Source: Albidovulum sp. (GTDB taxonomy: Bacteria; Pseudomonadota; Alphaproteobacteria; Rhodobacterales; Rhodobacteraceae). From it: 64,000 nucleotides of DNA. A program made the position numbers and the translations under genes. Below, piece by piece: positions 9,219-55,190 of the stretch. The stretch's first letter is position 1, and each line of letters opens with the position of its first letter. The stretch is from contig WFVA01000085.1 in assembly GCA_015491895.1 (NCBI GenBank), forward strand, positions 1-64,000. The letters are read 5' to 3'. The notes below the pieces were generated by a model. The model made no database searches. It was given only the letters and a program-made list of their open reading frames with translations, and had not been told where the DNA came from.

Positions 9219-9221
9219 CGC

Positions 9222-9626: not shown

Positions 9627-9799
9627 CCCGGGCTTTCCTCCTCATGCTGACGTGACCCGGGTTATCGCGCGATGGTGGCCGGCAGGCAAGAGGTTGGCCC
9701 TGTGGCGAATTAACCGGGTGTTATCCCTGCGCGCATAACCTGATTCGCGAATTGCCCGCAGGAGGAATGCCCGCAGCAAGGAGATGAAGGAGTGCTGCC

Positions 9800-37658: not shown

Positions 37659-38006
37659 GCTTTCTCCCTCCTGAGATTTCAGGCACCCTGGTGCCCGCTT
37701 GCAATTTTTTCGGCGCGACGTTCCGCCGCATCTTCCGAACGCGTTTCATACTTCTACGTTTCGGACCAAAACGCAAAGCAAGATTTCCTTTACCCTGCGG
37801 AAAACCTGACCAAAAGGACAAAATGGCAGGCATGTCCGGCCACTGGAAGCCAACCTGCCACAAACAATCCGATCAGGCCCGGGCCCGGGGCAGCCCGGCC
37901 CCCGGGATACCTCGCAGCGATTCGCGAAGCGCGGGCGAAAGGCATGAAATACCGCTTGCCTGCAGCGCACCTGCGGGATTACCCTGAACGCAGGGGAGGA
38001 AAGCAG
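37659..38006. promoter_or_regulatory. divergent intergenic region between the polyamine-type and tungstate operons
   Basis: 348 nt without a credible gene. It must hold promoters for both divergent operons. I see two copies of a short GACCAAAA motif (near 37765 and 37810) and AT-richer sequence around 37690-37830, possible operator or promoter DNA on the binding-protein side. The tupB ribosome site is GGGGAGGAAAGCAG just before 38007. No clear -35/-10 pair stands out. Confidence 0.4.
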
Positions 38007-39417: not shown

Positions 39418-39442
39418 CCGAATGGAAGGATACCACCCCGCC

Positions 39443-40279
39443 ATGCGCCTCCCTGCCCTGCCTGCCGTTCTGTTCGTTCTCCTGCTGCCTTTGGCGGCGC
39501 TTGCCGGAAAAAACGAGATCATCCTCCAATCCACCACCTCCACCCAGAATTCCGGCCTCTATGAATATCTGCTGCCCCTCCTTGAAAGGGATACAGGGCT
39601 CAGGGTGAAGGTCGTGGCGGTGGGGACCGGGCAGGCGCTGAAGAATGCCCGCAACTGCGATGGCGATGTGGTGCTGGTGCATGCGCGCGACGCGGAAGAG
39701 AAATTCGTGGCCGATGAATACGGGCTGAAGCGGAATGACGTGATGTATAACGATTTCATCCTGATCGGCCCGGAAGATGATCCTGCGGGCGTGCGTGAGG
39801 CCCGCGACATCACCGAGGCCCTGCAAAGGATCGCCGCCGCGAGGGCACCCTTTGCCTCGCGCGGGGATGACAGCGGCACGCACAGGAAGGAACTGCGGCT
39901 GTGGAAGGCCGCCGGGCTTGATCCGGGCGCGGCGCGCGAAGGCTGGTATCGCGAAACCGGCTCCGGCATGGGCGCCACGCTCAACATCGCCGCCGGCATG
40001 GGCGCCTATGCCCTCACCGACCGCGCCACATGGATTTCCTTTGCCAACAGGGAAGGCCTCGCCATCCTCCATGAAGGCGATCCGGCCCTCTTCAATCAGT
40101 ATGGGGTGATTGCCGTCAATCCCGCGCATTGCCCGGGGATGAACATCAAGGGCGCGGAAACCTTCATTACCTGGCTTCTGTCGGATAAAGGCCAGAAGGC
40201 CATCGCAAGCTACCGCCTGAAGGGGCAGCAGCTGTTCTTTCCCAATGCACATCCCGTCCTGCCCGGCAATGGCGGATGA
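39443..40279 (+). CDS. tupA: tungstate-binding periplasmic protein TupA
   Basis: Periplasmic tungstate-binding protein (278 aa) with an N-terminal signal peptide (RLPALPAVLFVLLLPLAALA) and the TupA oxyanion-binding motif STTSTQNSGL right after it. Other family marks are SRGDDSGTH and GMGATLNIAAGMGAYALTDR. The ATG at 39443 is preferred over 39422 because GGAAGGA lies upstream and the signal peptide starts there. Only 7 nt separate its 3' end from the convergent rhodanese gene. It delivers WO4(2-) to TupBC, and the next cluster encodes a formate dehydrogenase that can use it. Confidence 0.92.
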   Translation: MRLPALPAVLFVLLLPLAALAGKNEIILQSTTSTQNSGLYEYLLPLLERDTGLRVKVVAVGTGQALKNARNCDGDVVLVHARDAEEKFVADEYGLKRNDVMYNDFILIGPEDDPAGVREARDITEALQRIAAARAPFASRGDDSGTHRKELRLWKAAGLDPGAAREGWYRETGSGMGATLNIAAGMGAYALTDRATWISFANREGLAILHEGDPALFNQYGVIAVNPAHCPGMNIKGAETFITWLLSDKGQKAIASYRLKGQQLFFPNAHPVLPGNGG

Positions 40280-40286
40280 AGCTCGG

Positions 40287-40664
40287 TCAGCCGTTCCTGA
40301 GCACCAGGCTCCCGGTATGGGGATCAATGGCCTTGTAGGGGAGCTTCGCGGCCTTCCAGGCGCCAAACCCCCCATCCATATGCGCAATCCGCCTGATCCC
40401 CGATTTCGCGCAAAGCTCCGCCATGGCATGCGAGCGCTTGCCCGAGCCGCAGTGCAGCACGATCGGCTTGCCTTCCTGACTTGGCAGATTGGCGGGATCG
40501 AAGATCGACATCGGGAAAAGCAGCGCCTGAGGAAGATGCTCGAAGGCATATTCCGCGGCCGTGCGCACATCGATCACCACGATTTCGTGGCTGCCGATCT
40601 TCTCAAGCACTTCCTCGGGCGTGTAGATGGTAAATTCCGCTCCGGCGAGGGGCTCGGTTTTCAT
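40287..40664 (-). CDS. rhodanese-domain protein
   Basis: Single-domain rhodanese (125 aa), cytoplasmic, no signal. The active-site loop is HCGSGKRSH with the persulfide Cys, preceded by VVIDVRTAAEYAFEHLPQA. Last gene of the formate dehydrogenase operon. A sulfurtransferase here could supply sulfur for the bis-MGD cofactor ligand (the role of FdhD in E. coli) or serve the Hdr-like module; both are inference. A good ribosome site (GAAGGAGGAATG) precedes the ATG. Confidence 0.85.
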   Translation of the reverse strand: MKTEPLAGAEFTIYTPEEVLEKIGSHEIVVIDVRTAAEYAFEHLPQALLFPMSIFDPANLPSQEGKPIVLHCGSGKRSHAMAELCAKSGIRRIAHMDGGFGAWKAAKLPYKAIDPHTGSLVLRNG

Positions 40665-40765
40665 GGCACATTCCTCCTTCAAGATGATGGCCTGCCACCC
40701 TGCTCGCCATATGCGCTCCCTCTTTCCGATATGGGGGCGGCCAGCTTCCTGAAGAAGAGGTGCCG

Positions 40766-42208
40766 CTATTTTTTCGCGGCCGGTTTCCGGCGCGCGGCCG
40801 ATCTGCCCTTCCCGGCCTTCTTCGCCCCCGCCGCGCGCTTTCCCACACCCTTCGGTTTCGCGCCACTGCCGGGTGCCTTCAAGGGCGGCTGATCGGTAAT
40901 CATGTTCGCCCCGATCAGATCGATCAGGCTTTCGATCTGCTTCCCGAAGCCCGTGGCCTCGATATCGCGCCCCAGGGTCATTTCGCATATATTGCAGCTG
41001 GTGACGAAATGATCGGCGCCGGTTTCCTCCACCGCGCGCTTCTTCAATTCGAACGCCTTGAGACGCAGCGGCCCGGCGCGTTCATTGGCCAGCACCCCGC
41101 CGCCGCCCCCGCAGCAGAAGGCATCAAGCCCGTGCGGATCCATCTCGCGCAGTTCCATGCCAAGGGCACGCATCAGGATGCGCGGCTTCTCCTCGAGCCC
41201 GCCGCGGCGGATCTGCTGGCAGGGATCATGGAAGGTGGCGCTTTCGCCCACCGGCCTGCATTCGAGCTTTCCGTCCTCCACGGCATCCGCCAGCACCTCG
41301 ACGATATGGCGGATCTTGATGTCATCCACCGGGGCGCCATACCATTTCGCCGCCTCCCAGCGCGTCGCCCCCCAGGCATGGCCGCATTCGGGCACGATCA
41401 GCATGGACGCGCCGATCTCGCGCGCCTTGTCGATCAGGCGCACGGTGAGCGCCCCCTGAAGCTCCATGTTGCCGGAAAGATAGCCGAAGTTCGTGGCTTC
41501 GAAGGCATCCGAGCAGAATGTCCAGTCATACCCCAGATGGTGCAGCACCCGCGCCATGCTGGCCACGCCGAAATGGCGGTTTTCCAGCGCTTCGGGGGTG
41601 ATCGTCATCAGCACATCGGCCTTCGGCTTGTCGAGCGGCAGGGGAATGCCGTATTCCTTCTCGATCTCCTTGATCGTCTTCCTGAAATCCTCGGGGCTTC
41701 CGAAGGGGCTGTGCTGCTTCTCGGCATTGCGCACGATCCGCGCCAGACGGTCAGGGAGCAGCCCGGCGGCATACATGCCCCGGCGCGCGTCCTTGACGAG
41801 CGAGGCGATATCGATCCCCATGGGGCAGGCCAGCGTGCAGCGGCCGCACATGTTGCAGCTGTCGTAGATCAGCTCTTCCCATTCTTCGAGTTCCTCGATC
41901 GTCAGCTTCGGCTTGCGCCCGAGGAGGCCGTGAAGCCAGGAAAAGGGGCCGTGGGTGAGCGCATAGGCATCCTCGAAGGGCTTGATCTTGTGGATCGGCG
42001 TGTATTTCTCCTCCCCCGTCGCGAGATAGAAATGGCAGGCTTCGGCGCAAAGCCCGCAGCGCACGCAGGCATTCATCCAGCTCTGCGCCCTGGGGCCGAA
42101 TTCGGCAATGAAGCCGGCCATGGCATTTTCCACCCGGACCTCATCGGGAAGATCGCGCTGCTTGTCGAAATTTCGGTGCTTTTCGGTGGTATCGCTCGTC
42201 ATGGCCAT
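40766..42208 (-). CDS. HdrD/DsrK-like iron-sulfur protein with basic tail
   Basis: Iron-sulfur protein (480 aa) related to the catalytic subunits HdrD, DsrK and GlpC. Two [4Fe-4S] ferredoxin motifs: C48-C51-C54-C58 (CVRCGLCAEAC) and C118-C121-C124-C128 (CNMCGRCTLAC). The C-terminal CCG domain has the pattern Cys-X34-CysCys-X38-Cys-X2-Cys, the non-cubane cluster site of heterodisulfide reductases. A preceding CCG-like domain is degenerate (VPECGHAW). The last 35 residues are Lys/Ala/Gly-rich. It lies 6 nt from the NarI-like gene, so together they make a DsrMK-type membrane module. No archaeal Hdr substrate is expected; the disulfide or other partner is unknown. Confidence 0.88.
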   Translation of the reverse strand: MAMTSDTTEKHRNFDKQRDLPDEVRVENAMAGFIAEFGPRAQSWMNACVRCGLCAEACHFYLATGEEKYTPIHKIKPFEDAYALTHGPFSWLHGLLGRKPKLTIEELEEWEELIYDSCNMCGRCTLACPMGIDIASLVKDARRGMYAAGLLPDRLARIVRNAEKQHSPFGSPEDFRKTIKEIEKEYGIPLPLDKPKADVLMTITPEALENRHFGVASMARVLHHLGYDWTFCSDAFEATNFGYLSGNMELQGALTVRLIDKAREIGASMLIVPECGHAWGATRWEAAKWYGAPVDDIKIRHIVEVLADAVEDGKLECRPVGESATFHDPCQQIRRGGLEEKPRILMRALGMELREMDPHGLDAFCCGGGGGVLANERAGPLRLKAFELKKRAVEETGADHFVTSCNICEMTLGRDIEATGFGKQIESLIDLIGANMITDQPPLKAPGSGAKPKGVGKRAAGAKKAGKGRSAARRKPAAKK

Positions 42209-42214
42209 GCCCTC

Positions 42215-42865
42215 CTATGCCCTGGTGCCCCGCCGCCCGGCCATGGCGCCGGTGAAGCCGCGCGAGAAGGGCCAGGTGAATGTGTGCATCAGGCTCGAGA
42301 AGGGGAAATAGATCAGCCACAGTTCGACCAGCCCCAGATGCAGCCCGCGCAGGAATGCGCTCTGCTCGCCGAGCGCCATGCAGCCCGTCAGCATGACGAT
42401 GAAGGTCAGCCCGGCGGCGACATGATCGTCCGGGCGCGAGATCAGCCGCACCACGGGATCGACGAAGCGGCGCAGCCAGAGCGTGATCAGACCGGCGAAG
42501 GCGAACTGGGCCGAGAGAATGAAGCCCCAGCGCGGAATCGGATCCCAGGGCAGGTTCACGATCTTCTCGCGTATGAATTCCACATGCGGCGCCGCGAACA
42601 GCAGGAGGACGAACAGCCCGATATGGAAGCTGTATCCCGCGATGGTCACGAACCAGGCCTTGCCGTTGCCCAGCAGCCGCCGCCAGGGCAGGAAATGGCC
42701 GAGGATCGTGCGCAGCGCCCCCAGGAAGGGTGATCCGGCCGGGCGGGCCTCGGCTTCGCGCCGCCCCGTGAACAGGATGACGATCAGGCGGAAGGCGGCA
42801 AAGGCGACGAAGATGCTCGCCGAAGCGATCCAGAGCGGCCCTTCGAGAAGCTCGAGCAGTGTCAT
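42215..42865 (-). CDS. NarI/DsrM-like membrane cytochrome b
   Basis: Integral membrane protein (216 aa) of the NarI (respiratory nitrate reductase gamma) superfamily, probably diheme b and quinone-reactive. Hydrophobic segments at about 10-32, 70-92, 113-130, 148-166 and 180-203. Candidate heme His residues are in GYSFHIGL and SLMHTFTW, with others in DDHVAAG and LRGLHLGL. Its ATG overlaps the stop of formate dehydrogenase gamma by 4 nt, and the Hdr-like gene follows 6 nt later. Confidence 0.85.
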   Translation of the reverse strand: MTLLELLEGPLWIASASIFVAFAAFRLIVILFTGRREAEARPAGSPFLGALRTILGHFLPWRRLLGNGKAWFVTIAGYSFHIGLFVLLLFAAPHVEFIREKIVNLPWDPIPRWGFILSAQFAFAGLITLWLRRFVDPVVRLISRPDDHVAAGLTFIVMLTGCMALGEQSAFLRGLHLGLVELWLIYFPFSSLMHTFTWPFSRGFTGAMAGRRGTRA

Positions 42866-43926
42866 GCGCCTTCCTCCGCCGTTTCCCGGGCCTGATCGCC
42901 GCTTTCAGCCTTTTCAAGCTCCTCCTCGAGCCAGCGATCATGATGCGCCCGCGCCCAGTTCTCGTCCACGTAACCATCCACCATGCCCTTGAGCGTGCCC
43001 CTGGTGCCGATCGTGCCGAGATAGATATGCCCGAGCGAAAACCCGATCATCACCAGTGCGGCGATGGCATGGATCAGCTCGGAAAGGTGAATCGTGTTGC
43101 GGGTGGCGAGATCATCGGGGAAGAGCATGATGAAGCCGGTCACGCTCAGCGCGCCACCGGCGATGACGGCTGTCCAGAACCATGCCTTTTCCCCGAGGTT
43201 GTAGCGCCCCGCCGGGGCATGGCCGCCGAAGAAGCCGCCCCCCTTCAGCAGCCATTTGATATCCACGAGCGAGGGGAAATTGCCGCGCAGGAAATGCACG
43301 AAAAGGCCGAGCAGGAAAAGCGCGAATATGGGGCCGAAGAGATTGTGCGCCTGCATCGCCGCCGTCAGCAGGATGCTGTGCGCCTCCTTGCCGATCAGGG
43401 GCAGGATGAAGGGGCGGCCGAACAGGATCGAAAGCCCCGTGAGCCCCATCAGGATGAACACGAAGGCGACCGACCAGTGCACGATCCGCTGGCTCAGGCG
43501 AAAGCGCAGGATCCTGCGGCCGCTGTCCTCGCCGTGTCCCACAGGGCCACGGATGAGGTAGAACAGCACCAGAAGCCCCAGAATGGCGAGAAGCCCCCAC
43601 GCCCCGTAATGCACGATGGGGCTCTTTTCGGGATTGCGCAGCTTCGCCCACTCCCAGCCTTCGGAATTGATGACCGATCCCGCTTCCGGGCTCCCCGTCG
43701 GCGGGTTTGCAATCCCGCCCGCGCCGAGGCGCAGATCATGCCAGATCTCGGCATCGCTGCGCTTGCCGAGCGTGTTCGGCGGGCCCGGATCGGCTTGTGC
43801 GGCACCGCTTTCCTGTGCCCGAAGGCCGCCAACCCCCGTCAGAGCCGGCATGGCCATGAGGAAAAATGCCGGAATGAGCAGGCTCCACAGGAGCCGGACA
43901 GCGCTGTGCCCCTTGTTGGTGGCCAT
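42862..43926 (-). CDS. formate dehydrogenase gamma (cytochrome b) subunit
   Basis: Membrane subunit (354 aa) of the FdnI/FdoI group: heme b protein that passes electrons from the catalytic heterodimer to quinone. The N-terminal 30 residues form a signal-like segment (LLWSLLIPAFFLMAMPALTG). Cytochrome b core has four helices, with heme-ligand candidates in LSQRIVHWSVAF, MQAHNLFGP, FVHFLRGN and ELIHAIAAL. ATG at 43926 chosen because upstream frame has no coding character. Stop overlaps the NarI-like gene. Confidence 0.92.
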   Translation of the reverse strand: MATNKGHSAVRLLWSLLIPAFFLMAMPALTGVGGLRAQESGAAQADPGPPNTLGKRSDAEIWHDLRLGAGGIANPPTGSPEAGSVINSEGWEWAKLRNPEKSPIVHYGAWGLLAILGLLVLFYLIRGPVGHGEDSGRRILRFRLSQRIVHWSVAFVFILMGLTGLSILFGRPFILPLIGKEAHSILLTAAMQAHNLFGPIFALFLLGLFVHFLRGNFPSLVDIKWLLKGGGFFGGHAPAGRYNLGEKAWFWTAVIAGGALSVTGFIMLFPDDLATRNTIHLSELIHAIAALVMIGFSLGHIYLGTIGTRGTLKGMVDGYVDENWARAHHDRWLEEELEKAESGDQARETAEEGA

Positions 43927-44081
43927 TTCCTGAAACCCTCGTTCTTTCGCTGGCGGATGTTCGCGGGCGGCCCCGCACCGGACGGCGCGGGCGGGGAAAG
44001 CCGATTCGCCCCGGCATGACCGGCCCGCTGATGACTGGCCAGGGCCGGACCCCGGCCAGCCACCAGCAGAAAGGGAAGCGC

Positions 44082-44690
44082 TCAGCCGCCCTTCTGTTCG
44101 TAGGCCGTTCCCCAGCCCCAGGCACCGGAGCCGAAACCGCGCGCCACCACACGCTCGCGGTAGACGGCCGAAACATCCTCGCCATCCCCGGCCAGAAGCG
44201 CCTTGGTGGAGCACATCTCGGCACAGATCGGCAGCTTGCCCTCGGCGATCCGGTTGGCCCCGTATTTCTGATACTCGGCCGCCGAATTGTCAGGCTCCGG
44301 GCCACCGGCGCAGAATGTGCATTTGTCCATCTTGCCGCGCGAGCCGAAGCTGCTGGCCTGCGGAAACTGCGGTGCCCCGAAGGGGCAGGCATAGAAGCAG
44401 TAGCCGCAGCCGATGCACAGATCCTTGTCGTGCAGCACGATGCCTTCTTCCGTCTGGTAGAAGCAGTCCACCGGACAGACGGCCATGCAGGGCGCGTCCG
44501 AGCAATGCATGCAAGCGACAGAAATCGTGCGCTCGCCGGGCGCGCCATCGCCGATCGTCACCACGCGGCGGCGGTTGATGCCCCAGGGCACGTTGTTTTC
44601 GTTCTTGCAGGCCGTGACGCAGGCGTTGCACTCAATGCAGCGTTCGGCGTCACACAAGAACTTTGCGCGGGCTTTACCTCCAAGTCCCAT
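44082..44690 (-). CDS. formate dehydrogenase beta (iron-sulfur) subunit
   Basis: Electron-transfer subunit (202 aa) with four [4Fe-4S] cluster sites: CIECNACVTACKNE, CMHCSDAPCMAVCPVD, CIGCGYCFYACPFG, and CTFC paired with CAEMC. No signal peptide; it is carried out by Tat with the alpha subunit. No C-terminal membrane anchor helix as in FdnH, so it is a shorter form that probably docks on the gamma subunit directly. It lies 12 nt after fdhA. Confidence 0.93.
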   Translation of the reverse strand: MGLGGKARAKFLCDAERCIECNACVTACKNENNVPWGINRRRVVTIGDGAPGERTISVACMHCSDAPCMAVCPVDCFYQTEEGIVLHDKDLCIGCGYCFYACPFGAPQFPQASSFGSRGKMDKCTFCAGGPEPDNSAAEYQKYGANRIAEGKLPICAEMCSTKALLAGDGEDVSAVYRERVVARGFGSGAWGWGTAYEQKGG

Positions 44691-44702: not shown

Positions 44703-47609
44703 TCATGCTGCCGTGATCTTGCAGAGAGTCGCTTTCGTCTCCTGCATCTGGGTTACCGAATCGTAGCCATATGTCTGGGCGGTGTTCGAAGCCTCGCCGA
44801 GCACATAGGGATCGGCGCCTTCGGGATACTTGTCGCGCAGATCCTCGCCCTGGAACCAGCCGCCGAAGTGGAACGGCATGAACACCACACCGGGGCCGAC
44901 CCGCTCCGTCAGCATGGCCTTCACCTTGACCTTGCCGCCTTCGGGCCCCTCGACCCAGACCATCGATCCATCCCGCACGCCGAGATCGTTCGCCGTGCGC
45001 GGATTGATCTCCACGAACATCTCCTGCTGCAGCTCGGCAAGCCAGGGGTTGGAGCGGCTCTCGTCGCCGCCGCCCTCGTATTCCACGAGGCGCCCGGAGG
45101 TGAGGATGATCGGGTAGTCCTTCGAGAAATCCTTCTTCTGGATCGATGCGTAAAGCGTCGGCAGACGATAGAAGTGGCGATCCTCGTAGGTCGGATAATC
45201 CTTCACCAGATCGCGCCGCGGCGTATAGAGCGGCTCGCGGTGCAGCGGGATCGGATCCGGGAAGGTCCAGACGACGGCGCGGGCCTTGGCATTGCCGAAG
45301 GGCGCGCATTCGTGCTTGATCGCCACCCGCTGGATACCGCCGGAAAGATCCGTCTTCCAGTTGGTCTTGTCGCCGGCGATGGCCTCGATCGTGGCCCGCT
45401 CCTCGTCCGTGAGATCGCCATCCCAGCCAAGCTCCTTGAGCATGGCCATGGTGAATTCGGGGTAGCCGTCCTGGATTTCGGAACCGACCGAATAGACGCC
45501 CTCGGCCAGAAGATTGCCGCCGCCCCATTTCTCCGGTGCTTCCACCCCGAAGCGGGCGCGGAAGGTGAGGCCGCCCTTGGAAACGGGCTTGGACATGTCG
45601 TAAAGGTTCGGCGTGCCCGGGTGGCCCATCTCCGGCGTGCCCCAGCAGGGCCACGGCAGACCGTAATATTCGCCGTCGCACGGCCCGCCCACGGCCTGAA
45701 GCGTGGTGCGATCGAAGGTGTGCTGATTGGCCATGTGCAGCCGCAGCCTTTCCGGGCTCTGGCCGGTATAGCCGATCGTCCACATCCCCTTGTTGAATTC
45801 GCGGGTGATGTCCTCGATCTTGGGCTCGTCCGTTTCCGCATCCACCGCGATGTTGCGGAAGAGACGATCGGCAAAGCCGAACTTCCTGGCGAACTTGGCC
45901 ATGATCACGTGATCGGGCAGGCTTTCGAATACCGGATCGATCACCTTTTCACGCCACTGCAGCGAGCGGTTCGAGGCGGTGACGGAGCCGTAGGTTTCGA
46001 ACTGGGTCGAAGCCGGCAGCAGATAGACACCATCCTTGCGATCCTGCAGCACGGCAGTCATCGTCGGATAGGGATCGATCACCACGAGGATATCGAGCTT
46101 GCTCATCGCCTCGCGCATTTCCGGCAGGCGGGTCTGCGAGTTGGGCGCGTGGCCCCAGAAGACCATGCCCTTCACGTTCTCCGGCTGATCGATGTTGTTC
46201 TTGTCCTCGAGAACGCCATCGATCCAGCGGCTGACGGGAATGCCCTTCAGATTCTGCAGGCTCTTTTCCTTACCGTCCTTGCCGGTGATCTTTGCGAACC
46301 GGCCAGCGAGCCATTCGGGATCCTCCTCCCAGACGCGCGCCCAGTGGCCCCAGGCCCCCTTGGAAAGGCCGTAGTAGCCGGGCAGCGTGTGCGAAAGCAC
46401 GCCGAAATCGGTTGCCCCCTGCACGTTGTCATGGCCGCGGAAGATGTTGGCGCCGCCGCCCGAGATGCCGATATTGCCAAGCGCCAGCTGCAGGACGCAA
46501 TAGGCGCGGGTGTTGTTGTTGCCGTTGGTGTGCTGGGTGCCGCCCATGCACCAGATCAGCGTGCCGGGGCGGTTGTTGGCCAGGGTGCGCGCCACGCGCT
46601 CCATCTGGCTGCCGGGCACGCCGGTAACCCGCTCGACCTCATCCGGGTTCCACTTCTTCACCTCTTCGCGGATCTTGTCCATCCCCCAGACACGGGTGCG
46701 GATGTATTCCTTGTCCTCCCAGCCGTTCTCGAAGATGTGCCACAGCAGGCCCCAGACCACCGCGACATCCGTGCCCGGGCGGATGCGCACATATTCATCG
46801 GCATGGGCCGCGGTGCGGGTGAAGCGGGGATCAACGACGATCAGCGGCGCGTTGTTCTGCTCCTTCGCGCGCAGGATATGCAGCAGCGAAACCGGATGCG
46901 CCTCGGCCGGATTGGAGCCGAAGAGGATCATCGAGCGGCTGTTGTGGATGTCGTTGTAGCTGTTTGTCATGGCGCCGTAGCCCCATGTGTTGGCCACGCC
47001 GGCAACCGTGGTGGAGTGGCAGATCCGCGCCTGATGATCCACGTTGTTGGTGCCCCAGTAGGCCGCGAACTTGCGGAACAGATAGGCCTGCTCGTTGTTG
47101 TGCTTGGCGCTGCCGAGCCAGTAGACGCTGTCGGGCCCGGCCGTTTCGCGGATCTCGAGGAGCTTGTCACCCACCTCGTTGATCGCCTCGTCCCAGCTGA
47201 TGCGCTTCCACTCGCCATCAACGAGCTTCATCGGGTATTTCAGCCGCCGCTCGCCATGCGCATGCTCGCGCACCGCCGCGCCCTTGGCGCAGTGGCCGCC
47301 GAGGTTGAAGGGGTTGTCCCAGCCCGGCTCCTGACCGACCCAGACACCATCCTTCACTTCCGCGACCACCGTGCAGCCCACCGAGCAGTGGGTGCAGACG
47401 CTCTTGATGATCTCGATCTTGTCGGCCTCGGTCTGCGCTTCGGCGCGCTTCACCGTGCCGCCCGTGGCGCCAAGCGCCGCCAGCCCGCCGATGGCGAGCC
47501 CGGATCCGCGCAGGAAGCCGCGCCGATCCACCTTCTTCGATCCGATCTGATGGAGAACGGACGGACCGCGGGAGCCATTCGCCACCCCGCCTGTCTTCTT
47601 TCTCAGCAT
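44703..47609 (-). CDS. formate dehydrogenase alpha (catalytic Mo/W-bisMGD) subunit
   Basis: Periplasmic catalytic subunit (968 aa) of a respiratory formate dehydrogenase. Tat signal (DRRGFLRGSG) near residue 30. N-terminal [4Fe-4S] Cys at 72, 75, 79 and 107. The metal ligand is Cys197 in RICHSTTVAG, where E. coli FdnG has selenocysteine; His198 follows as usual. Downstream GAMTNSYNDI and the bisMGD-binding regions are intact. The start ATG at 47609 has GGAGGGC upstream. A tungstate importer is encoded a few genes away, so W rather than Mo is plausible; the sequence alone cannot decide. Confidence 0.95.
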   Translation of the reverse strand: MLRKKTGGVANGSRGPSVLHQIGSKKVDRRGFLRGSGLAIGGLAALGATGGTVKRAEAQTEADKIEIIKSVCTHCSVGCTVVAEVKDGVWVGQEPGWDNPFNLGGHCAKGAAVREHAHGERRLKYPMKLVDGEWKRISWDEAINEVGDKLLEIRETAGPDSVYWLGSAKHNNEQAYLFRKFAAYWGTNNVDHQARICHSTTVAGVANTWGYGAMTNSYNDIHNSRSMILFGSNPAEAHPVSLLHILRAKEQNNAPLIVVDPRFTRTAAHADEYVRIRPGTDVAVVWGLLWHIFENGWEDKEYIRTRVWGMDKIREEVKKWNPDEVERVTGVPGSQMERVARTLANNRPGTLIWCMGGTQHTNGNNNTRAYCVLQLALGNIGISGGGANIFRGHDNVQGATDFGVLSHTLPGYYGLSKGAWGHWARVWEEDPEWLAGRFAKITGKDGKEKSLQNLKGIPVSRWIDGVLEDKNNIDQPENVKGMVFWGHAPNSQTRLPEMREAMSKLDILVVIDPYPTMTAVLQDRKDGVYLLPASTQFETYGSVTASNRSLQWREKVIDPVFESLPDHVIMAKFARKFGFADRLFRNIAVDAETDEPKIEDITREFNKGMWTIGYTGQSPERLRLHMANQHTFDRTTLQAVGGPCDGEYYGLPWPCWGTPEMGHPGTPNLYDMSKPVSKGGLTFRARFGVEAPEKWGGGNLLAEGVYSVGSEIQDGYPEFTMAMLKELGWDGDLTDEERATIEAIAGDKTNWKTDLSGGIQRVAIKHECAPFGNAKARAVVWTFPDPIPLHREPLYTPRRDLVKDYPTYEDRHFYRLPTLYASIQKKDFSKDYPIILTSGRLVEYEGGGDESRSNPWLAELQQEMFVEINPRTANDLGVRDGSMVWVEGPEGGKVKVKAMLTERVGPGVVFMPFHFGGWFQGEDLRDKYPEGADPYVLGEASNTAQTYGYDSVTQMQETKATLCKITAA

Positions 47610-47713
47610 TTCATGCCCTCCCTGTGGGAGCCAACGCTCCCGGTTCATCCTTCCGGCCGGAATTCGGACTCGGGGCCATACGCTACCCTCGCCCTTCCGG
47701 CCGCAAATTCCGC

Positions 47714-47969: not shown

Positions 47970-48608
47970 TCAGATCATGCGCATGGTTTCCGCTTCGATC
48001 TCCATGAATTCGCGCCCCACGCGCCCCACCCCGGCATAGAGCACGGCCGCTTCGGCATTCTCCATGTCGCTGAAGCAATGCGCGGCCCAGGGGGCGATAT
48101 GGGTGTTGAAGAATTCCTTCTGCCGCCCGAGCGCCACCACCTCGCCGAAGCGCCCGCGGATCATGCCCGCCATCATCTCGCACAGCGAGGCCAGGCCATC
48201 CTCGGGCTCCTTCACATCCTCCGCCCGGGTGATGCGCAGGCGAGCCATGTCGGCCCGCAGGCGCGCGAGGGGCTGCTCGTTCAGAAAGCCCGTCATGTAG
48301 TAGCTGCCATAGGGCAGCACCTCGCCGCGCCCGAGGCCGATGAACATGGCGTTGAATTCCCGCTCCGCGGCCTTTTCGCTCGTGCCTCCGGCCAGCCGCG
48401 CCAGCATGTTGACGGCCTCGCCGAGCGGCGTTTCATCGCCCTCGAGCCGGGCCACGCCGGCCAGAAGCCCGGCGGAGGGCGGGCGAGCGAGAAAAGCGGC
48501 CAGCAGATCGTAGAGATCCGCGCGCATCGCCTCCTCATCAGGCAACGCAGGCGCGGTTGCCACGGCAGGGGCGGCGGCTCCGTCTGCTTCGGGATTTGTG
48601 TTCCTCAT
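47970..48608 (-). CDS. TorD/DmsD-family chaperone
   Basis: Redox-enzyme maturation chaperone (212 aa), all-helical, cytoplasmic. Such proteins bind the Tat signal of molybdo/tungsto-enzymes until cofactor is loaded; FdhA downstream is the obvious client. Family pattern: EREFNAMFIGLGRGEVLPYG for the helix region and FFNTHIAPWAAHCFSDME near the C-terminus. The ATG at 48608 was chosen over the longer frame. An inverted GTCGC/GCGAC pair lies just upstream (48631-48658), possibly a regulatory site. Confidence 0.88.
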   Translation of the reverse strand: MRNTNPEADGAAAPAVATAPALPDEEAMRADLYDLLAAFLARPPSAGLLAGVARLEGDETPLGEAVNMLARLAGGTSEKAAEREFNAMFIGLGRGEVLPYGSYYMTGFLNEQPLARLRADMARLRITRAEDVKEPEDGLASLCEMMAGMIRGRFGEVVALGRQKEFFNTHIAPWAAHCFSDMENAEAAVLYAGVGRVGREFMEIEAETMRMI

Positions 48609-48702
48609 GGGAATGAGGCTAATGGGAGTCGTCGCGCAAGCCAAGTAAAATCTGCGACAAAATGTAACAATATCCGGGGGGCGCCCCGGCCGCATCAGAC
48701 CG

Positions 48703-49407
48703 TCAGGCTTCCTCATCAAAACGGAAGCTCATGCGCCGGGGCGCAACCGCAAGATCCTGATTCCGGTCGGAAATATCATGGCGGAGGTTCTCCCCGCCCG
48801 GGGATTTCCGCGCATCGGATGGATCAGGCGCTTCTGCCGAAAGCGCGTCCCCGGCGGGGGGAGCGGGAAGATCGCCACCCTCCTCGGGAGCTTGCGCGGG
48901 CACGGCGCTCGCAGCCTCATCCGCGTTTTCCGACTGCGCTTCCCCTTCATCCTCTTCATCCGAAAGCACCGCCCTGGCATAGCCCTTGCCCGCCTCCCAG
49001 GCCGTCGTCATTCCCTCGACCACGGTCGCGCCATCGCTGAAATCCTCGCCGTAATCGATCAGGCCATCGAGATTGGCGAGATCGGGATTGATGGCCCAGA
49101 GCCGGCGCAGGGCCCGGCGGCGGATCGCCTGCGGTATCGCGGCCTTCATGAAGGCGGCGAAATCATCGCCCGGCCGGAGCGTTTCGGGGGCCGGCAGGCC
49201 GAGGCGGGCGAGAAGCTCTTCCTCGCTTTCCGCCTCCGGCCCGGGCCCGGCGGCAGGCGATTCGCCGCCTGACGGACCGGCCTTCGCAGGCATTTCCCGC
49301 TCCCGTTCCCGCGTTTGCGGCCTTTCGCTTTCCTGTTCGGCCTTTCGCGCCTCGGCCTTTCGCGCGGCCCAGCGCCCGAGAAAGCCGCCGCCCTCCGGCT
49401 CACGCAT
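48703..49407 (-). CDS. DUF3306 protein, formate dehydrogenase accessory
   Basis: DUF3306-family protein (234 aa). Conserved part: FLGRWAARKAEARK near the start and the core IPQAIRRRALRRLWAINPD followed by LDGLIDYGEDF. The last 90 residues are acidic, Pro/Ala/Glu-rich and probably disordered. Cytoplasmic. DUF3305 and DUF3306 genes usually accompany bacterial fdh operons; biochemical role unknown. Its ATG overlaps the DUF3305 stop by 8 nt. Confidence 0.85.
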   Translation of the reverse strand: MREPEGGGFLGRWAARKAEARKAEQESERPQTREREREMPAKAGPSGGESPAAGPGPEAESEEELLARLGLPAPETLRPGDDFAAFMKAAIPQAIRRRALRRLWAINPDLANLDGLIDYGEDFSDGATVVEGMTTAWEAGKGYARAVLSDEEDEGEAQSENADEAASAVPAQAPEEGGDLPAPPAGDALSAEAPDPSDARKSPGGENLRHDISDRNQDLAVAPRRMSFRFDEEA

Positions 49408-50020
49408 CCTTCTTCCCCGGCTTGAATGCGCCCGGCGCACGATAGACATCCGCCGCCTGGCGCACTCTTGCATCGCCAATACCATCCTGCTTGCGATCGA
49501 TCCTGAGCTTGTCGCGCCGGCGCTTGCGGAAGCGCTCCTCCTTCATGTGGGCATCGACAAAGCCCTGCACGAAGGCGATCAGCCCCGCAGGCATGGGCAC
49601 CGGAGCCACCTCCTGATCGTCGGCATCGGCATAATCCTGGGCATCGAAGGCAGAGGCCGTGATCTCATGCACGCCGGGGCGCCCGTCCTCGCCCGGCTCA
49701 TTGAGGATGACGAAAACCGAAGGCGGATCCATCGCGAGCGATACCCTGTAGCCCTCGATCTCGGCACGGTGAAGGTGCAGGGGAAGCGTGGCGGCGTGAT
49801 ACTCCACCACATCGCCTTCCCTGCGCATCTCCTTCCATTCGGCAGGGCCCGCCCCCGGCAGCACGGCAACCGCCTCCCAGATCCATTCCTGCCAGCGCGT
49901 GAGCCCGGGGCGGCGCTGGAGCACGATGCCGAGCGGCATCTCCAGCTCGCGCCCGGCAAACAGCTCGAGCACCTCGCCGCCCTTGATTTCGGTATCTGTC
50001 ATCTTGCCTGATCCGGCCAT
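49400..50020 (-). CDS. DUF3305 protein, formate dehydrogenase accessory
   Basis: DUF3305-family protein (206 aa), first gene of the operon. Core MPLGIVLQRRPGLTRWQEWI followed by WEAVAVLPGAGPAEWK, then PPSVFVILNEPGE. No Cys cluster or membrane segment; ends in a basic tail. The start at 50020 has GGGGGAGAGAAG upstream; the ATG at 50002 is an alternative. Function unknown beyond its link to formate dehydrogenase. Confidence 0.85.
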   Translation of the reverse strand: MAGSGKMTDTEIKGGEVLELFAGRELEMPLGIVLQRRPGLTRWQEWIWEAVAVLPGAGPAEWKEMRREGDVVEYHAATLPLHLHRAEIEGYRVSLAMDPPSVFVILNEPGEDGRPGVHEITASAFDAQDYADADDQEVAPVPMPAGLIAFVQGFVDAHMKEERFRKRRRDKLRIDRKQDGIGDARVRQAADVYRAPGAFKPGKKDA

Positions 50021-50150
50021 GCTTCTCTCCCCCGCGGTCAGCTTAGGCCCGGGGAGGCGTGCTGTCAAAATCCTGACCAGAAATTCAAAGTTGAGTTGAC
50101 AACCCGCACCAGCGGCGCGTTTGATACGGGGCCGGAGAAACGGGGAACAC
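50021..50150. promoter_or_regulatory. divergent promoter region of the formate dehydrogenase cluster
   Basis: Between DUF3305 (minus) and the polyferredoxin (plus). Plus strand: TTGACA (50096-50101) and TTTGAT 18 nt later. Minus strand: TTGACA as TGTCAA at 50063-50068, with a weak -10 about 17 nt further. The two -35 hexamers are 27 nt apart, back to back, so one regulator bound between them could control both arms. Around 50090-50103 lies GTTG/CAAC inverted symmetry. Confidence 0.5.
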
Positions 50151-52145
50151 ATGCCGAAAATATCGACACTGATCGTCTGCGATTGCGCGGGCACGATGGA
50201 GCCTGATGCCGGTCTTCTTGGGAAGGCCTGCGACGCCAGCCGGGTGAAACGCTGCACAATGGCCTGCACGCGCGATCTCGATGTGGCCGCCAGGGCGCTC
50301 GCGGGCGAGGGCACGGTGCTCATCGCCTGCGGGCAGGAAGCGGAGCGCTTCGAAAGCCTCGCCGGCGAGATTGCCGAGGAAAAGGGCCGCGCCGCGGATC
50401 TCGTCACAGCCGATATCCGCGATCGCGCCGGCTGGTGCGAAGAGGGCGGCGCGGGGGCGAAACAGGCCGCGCTTCTGGCGGAGGCTGCGCTTGATTCGCC
50501 GCTTTCGCAGATGTTCGACATCACATCCCCCGGCACCTGCCTCGTGATCGGCAGGGGCGAAGCGGCGATCGAGGCCGCTCGGAGCCTTTCGCAGGAAATG
50601 GCCGTGACATGCGTCATCGCCAGTGCAGACGAGGCCCCCCTCGAGCCGCCCGCGGGCTATGATCTCGCCCTCGGCCGGCTGCGCAAGGCCACCGGCAGCC
50701 TCGGCAATTTCACCGTCCGCCTCGATGGCTATGCGCCGTTCGATCCCGCGGGCCGCGGCGCGCCCCGCTTTCAGCCCCCGCGCGACGGCGCCGTTTCCGA
50801 ATGCGACATCATCCTCGATCTGACGGGCGATCGCCCCCTCTTCCCCGCCCCCCACAAGCGCGATGGCTATCTGCGCGCCGATCCCCACGATCCGGTTGCC
50901 GTGGCCCGCGCCACTCAGAAGGCGGCGGAGATGAAGGGCAGTTTCGAAAAGCCCCTCTACATCAGCTTCGATGCCCTGACCTGCGCCCATTCACGCGCCG
51001 GGCAGGCCGGGTGCAGCCGCTGCCTCGACATCTGCCCCACCGGCGCGATTTCGCCCGATGGCGATGCCGTCAGCATAGATCCCGGGATTTGCGCGGGCTG
51101 CGGAGGGTGCGCGGCCGTCTGCCCGTCCGGGGCGGCATCTTATGCCGATCCGCCGGTGGATTTCCTCTTCCGCAGGCTGACGGCACTGGCGCGCACCTAC
51201 CGCGATGCGGGCGGCGGCGCCCCGCGCCTGCTGGTGCATGACGGCGAAACAGGCGCGGAAATGATCCGCCTCTCGGCCCGCTACGGGCGCGGCCTGCCGC
51301 CGGATGTGATCCCGCTCCTGGTGAACGAGGTGGAGGGATTCGGGCACGCCGAGATGCTGGCCGCGCTTGGCTGCGGGTTTTCGCATGTGTTCCTGCTGAC
51401 AACCCCGCACACCGATATGTCAGCCCTCGCCCCCCAGCACGAACTTGCGCTGGCGATTGCGGGGAGCGAGGCGGTGACGCTGATCTCGCCCGCCGAGCCC
51501 GATCAGCTCGAGGAGATCCTGCGCGCGCCGCAGGAAGCGAAGGCGGTTGCAAATCCGATCCTGCCCATGGGCGGGCGGCGCGAGGTGGTGCGCAGCGCCG
51601 CCACCGCGCTCCGCGGTGTAACGGACAGCCCCCTCCCCCTGCCTGCGGGCGCCCCCTACGGCGCAGTGGAGATCGATACCGGGGCCTGCACGCTCTGCCT
51701 CGCCTGCGTTTCGCTCTGCCCTGCGGCGGCTCTTGGCGACAACCCCGGCAAGCCGCAGGTCAATTTCACCGAGGCCGCCTGCCTGCAATGCGGGATCTGC
51801 GCCAATACCTGCCCGGAAAACGCGATCACCCTCACGCCGCGCCTTGATCTTTCACCGGCCGCGCTTTCGCCCCGCGTGCTGCATGAGGAGGAGCCCTTCG
51901 CCTGCATCGAATGCGGCAGGGAATTCGGTGTCCGCTCCACGATCGAGCGCATCGCCGAGGCGCTCGGGGGCAAGCACTGGATGTTTCGCGAGGAAAGCCG
52001 GCTGCGCCTCGTTCAGATGTGCGACGATTGCCGGGTCCGGGCCCAGCATCACGCCGAGAATTCCCCCTTCCGCGTGGGCGAGCGCCCCCGCACGCGCACA
52101 ACGGATGACGATCTGGCGGAACGCGAAGAGCGGGAGGAGGGATAG
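50151..52145 (+). CDS. large polyferredoxin-type iron-sulfur protein
   Basis: Cytoplasmic protein (664 aa) with several cluster sites. Residues 1-250 have scattered Cys (CDCAG, CTMACTRD) and no known domain. Then a two-cluster ferredoxin: CSRCLDICP and CAGCGGCAAVCPSGA. A middle region (RLLVHDGETGAEMIRLSARY) resembles MvhD/HdrA-associated domains weakly. A second two-cluster ferredoxin: CTLCLACVSLCPAA and CLQCGICANTCPEN. A C-terminal four-Cys site: CIEC and CDDC. Homologues accompany fdh operons. It may shuttle electrons for cofactor maturation or link FDH with another acceptor; inference only. Confidence 0.82.
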   Translation: MPKISTLIVCDCAGTMEPDAGLLGKACDASRVKRCTMACTRDLDVAARALAGEGTVLIACGQEAERFESLAGEIAEEKGRAADLVTADIRDRAGWCEEGGAGAKQAALLAEAALDSPLSQMFDITSPGTCLVIGRGEAAIEAARSLSQEMAVTCVIASADEAPLEPPAGYDLALGRLRKATGSLGNFTVRLDGYAPFDPAGRGAPRFQPPRDGAVSECDIILDLTGDRPLFPAPHKRDGYLRADPHDPVAVARATQKAAEMKGSFEKPLYISFDALTCAHSRAGQAGCSRCLDICPTGAISPDGDAVSIDPGICAGCGGCAAVCPSGAASYADPPVDFLFRRLTALARTYRDAGGGAPRLLVHDGETGAEMIRLSARYGRGLPPDVIPLLVNEVEGFGHAEMLAALGCGFSHVFLLTTPHTDMSALAPQHELALAIAGSEAVTLISPAEPDQLEEILRAPQEAKAVANPILPMGGRREVVRSAATALRGVTDSPLPLPAGAPYGAVEIDTGACTLCLACVSLCPAAALGDNPGKPQVNFTEAACLQCGICANTCPENAITLTPRLDLSPAALSPRVLHEEEPFACIECGREFGVRSTIERIAEALGGKHWMFREESRLRLVQMCDDCRVRAQHHAENSPFRVGERPRTRTTDDDLAEREEREEG

Positions 52146-52255: not shown

Positions 52256-53047
52256 TCATCGGAATTCTATCGGCTTTCCGAGATCCTTCGGCTTGATCGT
52301 GGCCACATAGGCCATGAGATCATCGAGATCCTTCTGCGTGAGCAGGACCGGCGCGACATGCAGCGGGTGGTCTGGATCCTTTTCTTCGCTCATGTCTTCC
52401 ACCGTCACCACCGCCCGGTGCGGGTTGGCGGCCCAGAAGGCGGCAAAGGTATCCTGCCAGTCGGGAAAGCTGCGCATGGCGGCGAAAGAGGGGGTCGAAC
52501 CTATGCCGGCATATGGGTTTTCATCATCGACCACATGGCAGCGCATGCAGTGGCGGCGCGCGATTTCGTGGCCGCGCAGGGGATCGCCGGTGAAGACCGG
52601 CGCCTTCTCGATTGCCGCCACCGCTTCCGCCGGCGCAAACAGCGGATCACCCCCCGGGGGAAAGGAGGCGATGGCGGCGCGGCCGGGCTTGCTTTGCAGC
52701 CAGGCGAGGAAGGCCTCCGCCCTGTCGCGGCCGGGCGATCCCTCGGGCGGGAGGCGCAGATACCAGATGCGGCCTGTCGCGCGTTCGGTGAAAACCGGCG
52801 TGCCCGGTGGCTCCGGGGCAATTTCCATGTCTGCCTTCTCCCCCGGCTTCGCAAGGGCAAGGCGGATCCGGCTCTTGAAGCGGAAGCGGGGGAAAAGGTG
52901 CTTCGGGAGGCCTGTTTCGGCAAGTTCGGGCGGAGCGGCCAGGATGAGATCGGGCGCTTCGGCCCAGGCGGGGCGGGTGAACGGCAGGAACAGGGCGATC
53001 ATGGCGAATGCGGCCATGGAGATGAGCGGTGATCGCTTGACATGCAT
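52256..53047 (-). CDS. c-type cytochrome with truncated TupA-like N-terminal domain
   Basis: Periplasmic protein (263 aa). Signal peptide 1-29 (cleavage after PAWA). Residues 30-140 resemble a shortened TupA-type binding protein: EAFLAWLQSKPGRAAIASF here against ETFITWLLSDKGQKAIASY in the TupA of this window, followed by G..LF.P in both. PDLILAAPPELAETGLPKHL aligns with the first strand and helix of TupA. The large central part of a binding protein is missing. Residues 150-263 are a class I cytochrome c with CMRCH (167-171). It faces against the flanking genes. It may be the electron acceptor or a metal-state sensor for formate dehydrogenase; unproven. Confidence 0.75.
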   Translation of the reverse strand: MHVKRSPLISMAAFAMIALFLPFTRPAWAEAPDLILAAPPELAETGLPKHLFPRFRFKSRIRLALAKPGEKADMEIAPEPPGTPVFTERATGRIWYLRLPPEGSPGRDRAEAFLAWLQSKPGRAAIASFPPGGDPLFAPAEAVAAIEKAPVFTGDPLRGHEIARRHCMRCHVVDDENPYAGIGSTPSFAAMRSFPDWQDTFAAFWAANPHRAVVTVEDMSEEKDPDHPLHVAPVLLTQKDLDDLMAYVATIKPKDLGKPIEFR

Positions 53048-53149: not shown

Positions 53150-53362
53150 ATGGACGACGAAACCTTCAATCTTTCGATGCGCAAGTTTCTCAAGAAGGTC
53201 GGTGTGACATCGCAGCAAAAGATCGAGGAGGCGGTGCGCGCGGCGCATGCCGAAGGGCGGCTTGCCAAGGGGGCCCTGCCGGTGAAGGTCACGCTCGAGA
53301 TCGCGCCTCTGGGCCTTTCCCATGAGGTGGAAGGCGAGATCCGCACCGAGGGGGAGGCATGA
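53150..53362 (+). CDS. DUF6494 small protein
   Basis: 70-aa protein beginning MDDETFNLSMRKFLKKVGVT and ending in a beta-rich VKVTLEIAPLGLSHEVEGEI. No signal or Cys. Matches the short DUF6494 family. The stop overlaps the Mrp gene start by 4 nt, so the two are coupled. Unknown function; the place in a formate dehydrogenase cluster suggests an accessory role. Confidence 0.75.
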   Translation: MDDETFNLSMRKFLKKVGVTSQQKIEEAVRAAHAEGRLAKGALPVKVTLEIAPLGLSHEVEGEIRTEGEA

Positions 53363-54465
53363 GCCTCGAAGCGGATGTGCGCGCGGCGCTTTCGGAGGTG
53401 GTCGATCCCGGACGGGGGCAGGATCTGATCAGCGCCGGCATGGTAAAGGGGCTGCAGATCAGCGGCGACACGGTGCGGTTCGTGATCGAGGTGGACGCGG
53501 CGCGCGCGGGCGCGATGGAGCCCCTGCGCAAGGCGGCCGAGGAGGCGGTGCTGGCCGTGCCGGGCGTGGCGCGCGCGGCTGCGATCCTGACGGCGCATGC
53601 AGCCGAGGGCGAAGCCCGCGCCAACGCCGCGAAAGGGCCGAAGGGGCCGGCGCCCGATCTCGGCCTCGGCATGAAGAAGCCGGCCGCCCCGGCCAAGGCG
53701 CGCCCCGAGGGCGTGCGCCATGTGATCGCGGTGGCCTCGGGCAAGGGGGGCGTGGGCAAGAGCACGGTCACGGCCAATCTCGCCGTGGCGCTGGCGGCGC
53801 GCGGCAAACGGGTGGGCGTGCTCGACGCCGATGTTTACGGCCCGAGCCAGCCGCGGATGCTGGGCGTTTCGGGCCGCCCCTCGAGCCCCGACGGCACCAC
53901 CATCCTGCCGCTTCGAAATCATGGCGTCACGCTGATGTCGCTCGGGCTGATGACGGGCGAGAACGAAGCGGTGATCTGGCGCGGTCCGATGCTGATGGGG
54001 GCACTCCAGCAGATGCTCGGGCAGGTGCAGTGGGGGCAGCTTGACGTGCTCCTAGTGGATCTGCCGCCGGGCACGGGGGATGTGCAGATGACGCTCGCGC
54101 AGAAGGTGCCGCTCACCGGCGCGATCATCGTTTCCACCCCCCAGGACATCGCCCTCATCGATGCGCGCAAGGGGATCGACATGTTCAACAGGATGGAGGT
54201 GCCCATCCTGGGGCTGATCGAGAACATGGCCGCCTTCGTCTGCGATGGATGCGGCAAGGTGCACCATCCCTTCGGCCATGGCGGCGCGCGCGCGGAGGCC
54301 GAAAGGCTCGGCGTGCCCTTCCTCGGGGAAATCCCGCTTGATCTCGCGGTGCGCGTGGCGAGCGACAGCGGCGCGCCGGTGGTGCTCCAGAACCCGGAAG
54401 GCCCCGAGGCGCAGGCCTTCTGGAAGATCGCGGACGGGCTGATCGGCGAAGGGGTGATCGGATGA
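53359..54465 (+). CDS. Mrp/ApbC-family iron-sulfur carrier ATPase
   Basis: P-loop ATPase (368 aa) of the Mrp/NBP35 group that carries [4Fe-4S] clusters to client proteins. N-terminal MIP18/DUF59 domain (residues 1-80), an Ala/Pro linker, deviant Walker A GKGGVGKST near residue 131, and the Cys pair CDGCGKVHHPF near residue 297 that binds the shared cluster. Formate dehydrogenase needs many clusters, so a dedicated copy here makes sense. Overlaps the next gene by 4 nt. Confidence 0.9.
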   Translation: MSLEADVRAALSEVVDPGRGQDLISAGMVKGLQISGDTVRFVIEVDAARAGAMEPLRKAAEEAVLAVPGVARAAAILTAHAAEGEARANAAKGPKGPAPDLGLGMKKPAAPAKARPEGVRHVIAVASGKGGVGKSTVTANLAVALAARGKRVGVLDADVYGPSQPRMLGVSGRPSSPDGTTILPLRNHGVTLMSLGLMTGENEAVIWRGPMLMGALQQMLGQVQWGQLDVLLVDLPPGTGDVQMTLAQKVPLTGAIIVSTPQDIALIDARKGIDMFNRMEVPILGLIENMAAFVCDGCGKVHHPFGHGGARAEAERLGVPFLGEIPLDLAVRVASDSGAPVVLQNPEGPEAQAFWKIADGLIGEGVIG

Positions 54466-55190
54466 GGGAGCTTGACGAGGATACGGCCCCGCCGAGCTTC
54501 CCGCCGCTTCTGCGCGGCGAGAGCGTGCCGGCGGCGACGGATCCGCTCGCCAAGGCCATGGCCGCGGGCATGAAGGGCGCGGATCCCGGGCTCGTGCTGT
54601 GGTCGCGCGATGAAACCAATGCGCGGGTGGCGGTGCTGTTTGCGCCCGAGCTCCCGCTGCGAAAGGCCATTGGCGGCGCATTTGCGGTGAAGCTCGGCAT
54701 GGCGGACGCGCTCGGAGCATTGGCCCCGCCCGAGGTGGCGGTGCATTTCAACTGGCCCGGGCGTTTCCGTATCAACGGGGTGCTTTGCGGCGTGCTGCGC
54801 GCCGCCGCCTCCGGCAGCGATCCCGAAGCCGTGCCCGATTGGCTGGCGATCGCCGTCACCATCCCGATCCTGCCCACCGGCACACACGAGCCGGGGCATA
54901 CGCCCGATGTCACGACCCTACATGACGAAGGCTGCGGCGAGATCACTGCTCCGCGCCTGATCGAAAGCTTCGCCCGCCACATGCTTGTCTGGATCAATCG
55001 CTTCGAAAACGAGGGCCTTGCGCCCCTGCACAAGGCCTGGTGCCAGAAATGCGAGGAAATCGGCACGGAGGTGAACCAGCCGGAAGAGGGGCTTTTCCTC
55101 GGGCTCGATGAAGAGGGCGGCATGATCCTGCGCCGGGGCGATGAAACCCGGATCATCCCGCTCACCACCCTGCTGGAGGGAACCTCATGA
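54462..55190 (+). CDS. biotin/lipoate-ligase-like protein (DUF4444 type) without the catalytic lysine
   Basis: Protein (242 aa) with the biotin/lipoate A/B ligase fold over about residues 20-165 and a C-terminal domain of about 70 residues as in DUF4444-containing members. In BirA the core reads W-P-N-D then K-L-A-G-I-L; here NWPGRFRINGVLCGVL (97-112) keeps the frame but has Val107 where the catalytic Lys stands. The GRGRRGR acyl-AMP loop is also absent. So it should not be a normal ligase; it may bind a cofactor or ligand. Located in the plus-strand arm of the formate dehydrogenase cluster with 4-nt overlaps on both sides. Confidence 0.75.
   Translation: MRELDEDTAPPSFPPLLRGESVPAATDPLAKAMAAGMKGADPGLVLWSRDETNARVAVLFAPELPLRKAIGGAFAVKLGMADALGALAPPEVAVHFNWPGRFRINGVLCGVLRAAASGSDPEAVPDWLAIAVTIPILPTGTHEPGHTPDVTTLHDEGCGEITAPRLIESFARHMLVWINRFENEGLAPLHKAWCQKCEEIGTEVNQPEEGLFLGLDEEGGMILRRGDETRIIPLTTLLEGTS

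Follow-up and report, generated by a model that had tools for sequence, protein, structure and literature searches.

The gene examined here lies at positions 52256-53047, on the minus strand, of the window, by which we mean the whole stretch of 64,000 nucleotides that was analysed. An earlier note, made from the sequence alone, had placed a cytochrome here, and reading of the open reading frame agrees with it, giving a protein of 263 amino acids, followed by a stop, that includes a CMRCH heme motif. The start is shared with a 91%-identical protein (locus L031), both of them beginning with MHVKRS. Three parts can be distinguished, all on the minus strand: a signal peptide recognised by eye (residues 1-29; 52961-53047), an N-domain that profile comparisons relate to lobe A of the binding protein TupA (residues 31-145; 52613-52957), and a cytochrome c domain (residues 152-263; 52259-52594). 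The CXXCH motif, read as CMRCH at residues 167-171 (52535-52549), is thereby present in a protein predicted to be secreted. Pfam finds Cytochrom_C at residues 158-251 (E 2.8e-4), together with one cytochrome model below threshold, and nothing in the N-terminal half of the protein.

On one side the neighbouring gene is convergent and encodes a 4Fe-4S polyferredoxin-like protein (50121-52145, plus strand; from gene maps). On the other side, and also on the plus strand, are a divergent DUF6494 gene (53150-53362) and genes for an Mrp/NBP35-type ATPase (53359-54465) and a biotin/lipoate ligase family protein (54462-55190). The minus strand carries a DUF3306 gene of the formate dehydrogenase (FDH) cluster (48703-49485), a TorD-family chaperone gene of uncertain start (47970-48719), and the genes for the alpha (44703-47648), beta (4Fe-4S; 44082-44690) and gamma (cytochrome b; 42862-44214) subunits of FDH, the last of these an open reading frame of uncertain start taken from the gene maps. 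The DUF6494, ligase and DUF3306 genes were recognised by family search, and the names of the Mrp, TorD, alpha and beta genes come from an annotated Sagittula cluster. DUF3305, DUF3306 and TorD-type genes are described as going with fdh operons in PMC4464133, the main text of which does not contain the term 'cytochrome c'.

Two further genes follow that of the gamma subunit (40766-42865, minus strand). The product of one resembles NarI, though with a score under the Pfam cut-off, and that of the other is HdrB-like (CCG/Fer4); in Sagittula the same spot is taken by a WD40-cytochrome c. The pair was rejected as the usual partner of this FDH, the HdrB-like protein being found in 4/80 genomes at E <= 1e-60, and because it is so rare the FDH of the window may have an unusual partner module. 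An open reading frame at 40287-40988 (minus strand), in which a rhodanese-like stretch was seen by eye, lies between the HdrB-like gene and tupA.

The genes tupB, tupC and tupA occupy 37944-40279 (plus strand), tupA itself (39422-40279) being a full-length member of the parent family. Against the NCBIfam TupA model its product scores 250 bits where the cut-off is 400, a level reached in none of 380 genomes of the order, and in spite of this score it is named TupA by similarity because it keeps an STTST stretch holding the TTTS-type motif and because tupB and tupC adjoin it. TupBCA has been linked with a tungsten-specific cofactor pathway in Methylorubrum (PMC13197769), in a paper whose main text does not use the word cytochrome.

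Relationship of the N-domain to TupA

Three alignments were made. That of the family (A1) holds 30 proteins, from 27 of the 29 loci L002-L030 with the window, L031 and L032, and leaves out L009 and L021, for which an internal stop is listed; that of TupA (A3; 268 columns) holds 26 proteins, one from the window and the others from the 29 loci L034-L062 less L043, L046, L052 and L058. A further alignment (A5) contains 20 of the 95 unique fused sequences, which were drawn from 104 open reading frames in the fetched loci and which form the set for the residue counts given below.

The earlier note had suggested that the region before the heme site resembles both ends of TupA while the middle of the binding protein is gone, and had named profile alignment to TupA as a check. 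That alignment, of the N-domain alone against the 26 TupA sequences, gave 95.9% with E 6e-9 in hhalign, and the profile of the whole family gave 94.9% (E 4.4e-8), with the N-terminal end aligned. Each end, taken by itself, was also matched: residues 31-69 (52841-52957, minus strand) to TupA columns 23-51 (95.0%, E 3.8e-8), and residues 104-142 (52622-52738, minus strand) to columns 226-258 (97.2%, E 4e-11). Neither the middle, residues 65-110, nor the heme domain matched TupA (0.2% each). Under default settings the best local alignment covers one end only, the N-terminal or the C-terminal one depending on the run, and a co-linear alignment spanning both ends needs mact loosened to 0.1 and has a middle that is filler and carries no meaning. 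Chance similarity was considered and rejected, as 200 column shuffles of each part gave best scores of 20.0-22.3, far below the real scores of 58.0, 44.6 and 57.5; reversed profiles likewise fall far below the real comparisons of the N-domain with TupA. The resemblance to both ends, and the lack of the middle, are therefore upheld by the separate alignments and their shuffled controls.

The same relationship is seen in searches that began elsewhere. Of the 95 unique sequences of the family, 92 are matched by a TupA HMM at E < 1e-3, with E calculated for 95 sequences, and 93 match each of the TupA ends under a permissive per-match limit; among shuffled sequences one of 95 passes E < 1. When the TupA profile was run against the PDB it found five chains, 5my5, 3muq, 3lr1, 3kn3 and 3cvg, of which 3muq and 3kn3 count as TupA proteins according to PMC5517513. 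All five lead the matches of the N-domain profile among 177,635 PDB sequences (E 2.9e-6 to 0.013), the next being an unrelated RNase P protein at E 0.029, and four TupA-type chains head those of the A1 profile (E 3e-4 to 5e-3), just above cytochromes c. Searched against the genome of the window, the N-domain profile returns the domain itself and, at E 2.6e-5, the C-terminal end of TupA; there is no third match at E <= 10. Taken as comparisons of sequence profiles, these results indicate that residues 31-145 derive from TupA, and that both ends of the domain are of TupA origin. The earlier note had pictured a remnant of this kind fused with a heme domain near a tungstate-type importer and FDH, and these are indeed found in the one window.

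Structure prediction was of low confidence. AlphaFold2, supplied with an alignment of three sequences only (window, L031 and L032), gave a mean pLDDT of 35.6 for the full-length protein and, with the same alignment, 46.5 for residues 31-147. Foldseek returned no match at E <= 0.001 for the latter, low-confidence model; ten matches at E 5.7-9.8, a ModA and a receptor ligand-binding domain among them, were given no weight.

It is possible to say which part of TupA this would be. According to PMC5517513, lobe A consists of residues 2-76 and 201-251 and lobe B of residues 91-200; the TTTS motif (residues 9-12) is in lobe A, where His59 also falls by its number, while Arg118, Thr124 and Asp170, opposite TTTS, fall in lobe B. 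With the lobe borders as given in that source, the alignments indicate that part of lobe A survives in the N-domain and that lobe B is missing, together with R118, T124 and D170. At about 110-115 amino acids, against the 268 columns of the TupA alignment, the domain does not have the two lobes with a cleft of a binding protein. The positions of TTTS hold serine or threonine in 1, 2, 5 and 8 of the 95 sequences, and all four do so in none.

What remains is well conserved. The fused family keeps residues that it shares with TupA (G46 in 93/95, P53 in 94/95, W116 and G122 in 95/95), although many TupA invariants outside this shared core are lost, and it has new near-invariant residues of its own (R54 in 94/95, F55 and K58 in 93/95). 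P53, R54, F55 and K58 together make up a family-specific motif, P-R-F-x-x-K (52874-52891, minus strand). The length of the N-domain is 104-132 residues in 94 of the 95 sequences and 51 in the remaining one. For a single pair, the window gene and L031, dN/dS (Nei-Gojobori) is 0.148 in the N-domain and 0.112 in the heme domain, which points to purifying selection on the N-domain between these two genes.

Distribution and gene neighbourhood

Among 390 genomes of the order, inferred to be Rhodobacterales from the named relative L031, 133 match the fused protein at E <= 1e-6; in two of these (G110 and G227) the match covers the heme domain only, and in a third (G204) it is cut by the end of a contig. 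The matches listed for 385 genomes of the class include the fused protein from five genomes of its own family and from G751 and G674, which belong to a different one and have the same neighbour genes to the extent that their stretches reach. A search of 398 genomes of the phylum at E <= 1e-12 gave ten matches, seven of them from its own family and three from the same class with the heme domain only. A complete TupA joined to a cytochrome, which would be a possible ancestor, is absent from the matches listed for these 385 and 398 genomes, and this is weak evidence. Relatives were not found in viral contigs, but are present in five plasmid records, from Sagittula, Sulfitobacter and Tateyamaria. 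The Sagittula record gives the whole gene order with names and the Sulfitobacter record part of it, and the label of the fused product is 'hypothetical protein' or 'c-type cytochrome'.

The gene occupies a constant position within the FDH cluster. Sixty carrier loci were fetched and mapped, with DUF3305, DUF6494 and rhodanese left unscored. In 57 of them the neighbour that converges on the gene is the 4Fe-4S gene, and in 59 the first scored gene in the other direction is Mrp. Of the three loci that lack the 4Fe-4S neighbour, two are cut short by a contig border; the third, L134, is not, and there the gene adjoins Mrp and the stretch contains no FDH. Looking for orthologues beside FDH had been proposed in the earlier note, and among 196 genomes FDH alpha (E <= 1e-250) is present in all 61 carriers, within 15 kb of the gene in 57 and elsewhere in the genome in the other four. 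Of 20 FDH-bearing loci from non-carriers, 16 keep the same cluster and four have another gene order, and in the 16 the gap between the 4Fe-4S and Mrp open reading frames is 4-272 bases, against 765-1184 bases in the four carriers measured.

Proteins with the same heme domain, recognisable from GIGSTPSF and PHP, and with no TupA part are found in other Alphaproteobacteria. Six of ten such heme-only loci (L095-L098, L100 and L106) have FDH genes in the stretch; L101 has TupA and a 4Fe-4S gene, and the remaining three have no recognised neighbours (FDH, tup). We found no family name for these cytochromes, which differ from the window protein in lacking the TupA part. A tree of 47 of the 95 fused sequences and ten heme-only rows, from which two weaker matches (L084 and L086) are left out, was made from 112 columns, and 7 of its 54 inner branches are well supported. 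Two state changes are needed, which fits a history in which the TupA part was gained once and lost once. The loss is in L095, which has a heme domain like that of the fused family at the usual place in the cluster (9442-9909 of that locus), is nested among fused proteins in this weakly supported tree, and has no N-domain. L095 has thus apparently lost the N-domain, which must be dispensable there as the heme domain is present without it. Since heme-only relatives exist elsewhere and the tree fits one gain, it seems that the cytochrome is older in the cluster and that the TupA lobe was added later, a direction that depends on midpoint rooting and is insecure.

Locus L098 contains in addition, beside tupA and the heme-only cytochrome, a gene for a protein with HTH_17 and PBP_like domains (8433-9425), which is possibly an oxyanion-responsive regulator; similar genes are also near tupA in several other FDH loci.

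A second c-type cytochrome is linked to the first. The WD40-cytochrome c has 426 residues, matches Pfam WD40 and Cytochrom_C, and adjoins the FDH gamma gene in Sagittula; a gene beside FDH gamma in L094 (30172-31452) similarly encodes WD40 repeats and a C-terminal heme c domain. Of 61 carriers of the mini-TupA cytochrome 54 have it at E <= 1e-100, as do 6 of the 46 non-carriers with FDH (p 1.3e-15); relaxing the limit to E <= 1e-40 leaves the first count at 54 and raises the second to 12 (p 2.7e-11). In 46 of the 54 carriers it is within 10 kb of FDH alpha. These statistics, like those for FDH above and TupA below, are uncorrected for shared ancestry. In genera with both carriers and non-carriers, as judged from the first 80 genomes, the WD40 gene is confined to carriers in four and absent from both in two; one of the latter (g3), when the remaining genomes are included, has it in 2/4 carriers and 0/7 non-carriers. 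The possibility that the mini-TupA cytochrome replaces the WD40-cytochrome c was rejected, as both mostly occur together. The genome of the window is one of the seven carriers without the WD40-cytochrome c, on which our literature search found nothing.

Possible functions of the mini-TupA cytochrome

The histidine of CXXCH is present in all 95 family sequences. There is no fully conserved methionine, the best column having methionine in 69/95 and tyrosine in the window protein, whereas His210 (52418-52420, minus strand), in a PH motif, is found in 94/95 with one gap, and PH is also there in all ten heme-only relatives compared. Because His210 is near-universal and no methionine is fully conserved, it is likely to be the sixth ligand, and the heme is probably His/His ligated.

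We consider it somewhat better than an even chance that this c-type cytochrome with its single heme is a periplasmic electron carrier belonging to the FDH cluster, and that the remnant of TupA lobe A acts in it as a docking module. Formate electrons would leave FDH via the cytochrome b subunit, and most carriers would also pass them via the WD40-cytochrome c; the mini-TupA cytochrome would then carry or buffer electrons to other periplasmic redox proteins. A role in electron transfer is the simplest reading because the protein is linked with FDH and with another c-type cytochrome. The lobe-A remnant would not bind an oxyanion and would serve instead for protein docking and positioning, and a docking surface fits because TupA-shared residues are kept while the ligand site is lost and conserved basic residues are gained. 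Docking on the FDH enzyme, which the earlier note had raised, is possible. Against the reading stand the low confidence of the structure models, the 46 FDH-bearing genomes that lack the gene, the carriers without and the non-carriers with a WD40-cytochrome c, the heme domain of L095 that has no N-domain, L134 and the four carriers with FDH elsewhere, and the three heme-only loci in which neither FDH nor tup genes were recognised. What was once an import receptor seems to have been taken over as a structural component of a protein that probably transfers electrons.

The position of the gene, between a 4Fe-4S protein and an Mrp/NBP35-type ATPase in a cluster with TorD, DUF3305 and DUF3306, might instead suggest a maturation or assembly factor that aids insertion of the iron-sulfur or tungsten cofactor of FDH, or its redox control. 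Mrp and TorD act in the cytoplasm. The mini-TupA cytochrome, given its signal peptide (seen by eye) and heme c site, should be periplasmic, and it tracks another cytochrome c. Furthermore, of 107 genomes with FDH 46 lack the gene and FDH therefore does not need it, so that we regard a part in maturation as unlikely. That a single lobe was exapted as a recognition domain for FDH or the TupB permease, where it would substitute for TupA and couple tungsten supply or FDH assembly to the redox state of the protein's own heme, appears to us quite unlikely.

TupB is also central to the proposal that the protein is a redox-linked regulator of tungstate import, the lobe-A mimic docking on the TupB permease in competition with TupA and linking tungsten uptake to the redox state of the heme. 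A search of 380 genomes for TupA at E <= 1e-20, which gave matches in 2/14 control genomes, found it in 130/130 carriers of the cytochrome, and none of the 126 genomes without TupA carries the cytochrome; in 51 of 85 carriers with listed positions the two are within 30 kb. In these co-occurrence tables the 380 and 196 genomes are taken as G000-G379 and G000-G195, and both G110 and G227 count as carriers for TupA, while for FDH only G110 does. Yet such co-occurrence would be expected anyway if the FDH uses tungsten. TupA is on another contig or more than 100 kb away in the other 34 of the 85, it is present in 124 genomes that lack the cytochrome, and the loss of many TupA invariants outside the shared core also speaks against a mimic. 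We think it very unlikely that the protein acts on import.

It could be argued that the TupA piece has no function and is a fossil, a linker tolerated after a chance fusion, for heme-only relatives lack it and L095 seems to have lost it. The near-invariant residues across 95 sequences, the narrow range of length in all but one of them and the low dN/dS of the one pair compared leave little probability for this. Finally, an oxyanion sensor, in which the domain would still bind tungstate, molybdate or a related anion and signal through the heme, as the earlier note had suggested, would accord with the clear TupA ancestry but is highly improbable because TTTS is intact in no family member and lobe B, with R118, T124 and D170, is missing.

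If the preferred reading as an electron carrier with a docking module is correct, a two-lobed transport receptor has been cut to part of one lobe, has lost its ligand site and has nevertheless been kept under selection. Two uncharacterised c-type cytochromes, mini-TupA and WD40, emerge in addition as tied to the FDH cluster, and the fate of formate electrons in these bacteria becomes directly testable. Our literature search, which had most subscription journals outside its coverage, gave no description of a mini-TupA cytochrome or of a TupA-cytochrome fusion.

With TupA (NCBIfam NF041772; PDB 5my5 and 3lr1) the N-domain has in common S/T-G-L, L-P, F-x-x-W-L-x-S-x-x-G and a late phenylalanine, but unlike TupA it has neither lobe B nor TTTS, has P-R-F-x-x-K, and is fused to a heme c domain. 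With the class I cytochromes c (Pfam PF00034, Cytochrom_C) the heme domain shares CXXCH near its start and the match over residues 158-251; it differs from them in having no fully conserved methionine, in the histidine of the PH motif and the GIGSTPSF signature, and in the binding-protein lobe that stands in front of it. We know of no binding-protein domain in TorC of Escherichia coli. TorC is likewise a c-type cytochrome dedicated to a bis-MGD enzyme, the TMAO reductase TorA (PMC11727998), but it is pentaheme and anchors TorA to the membrane.
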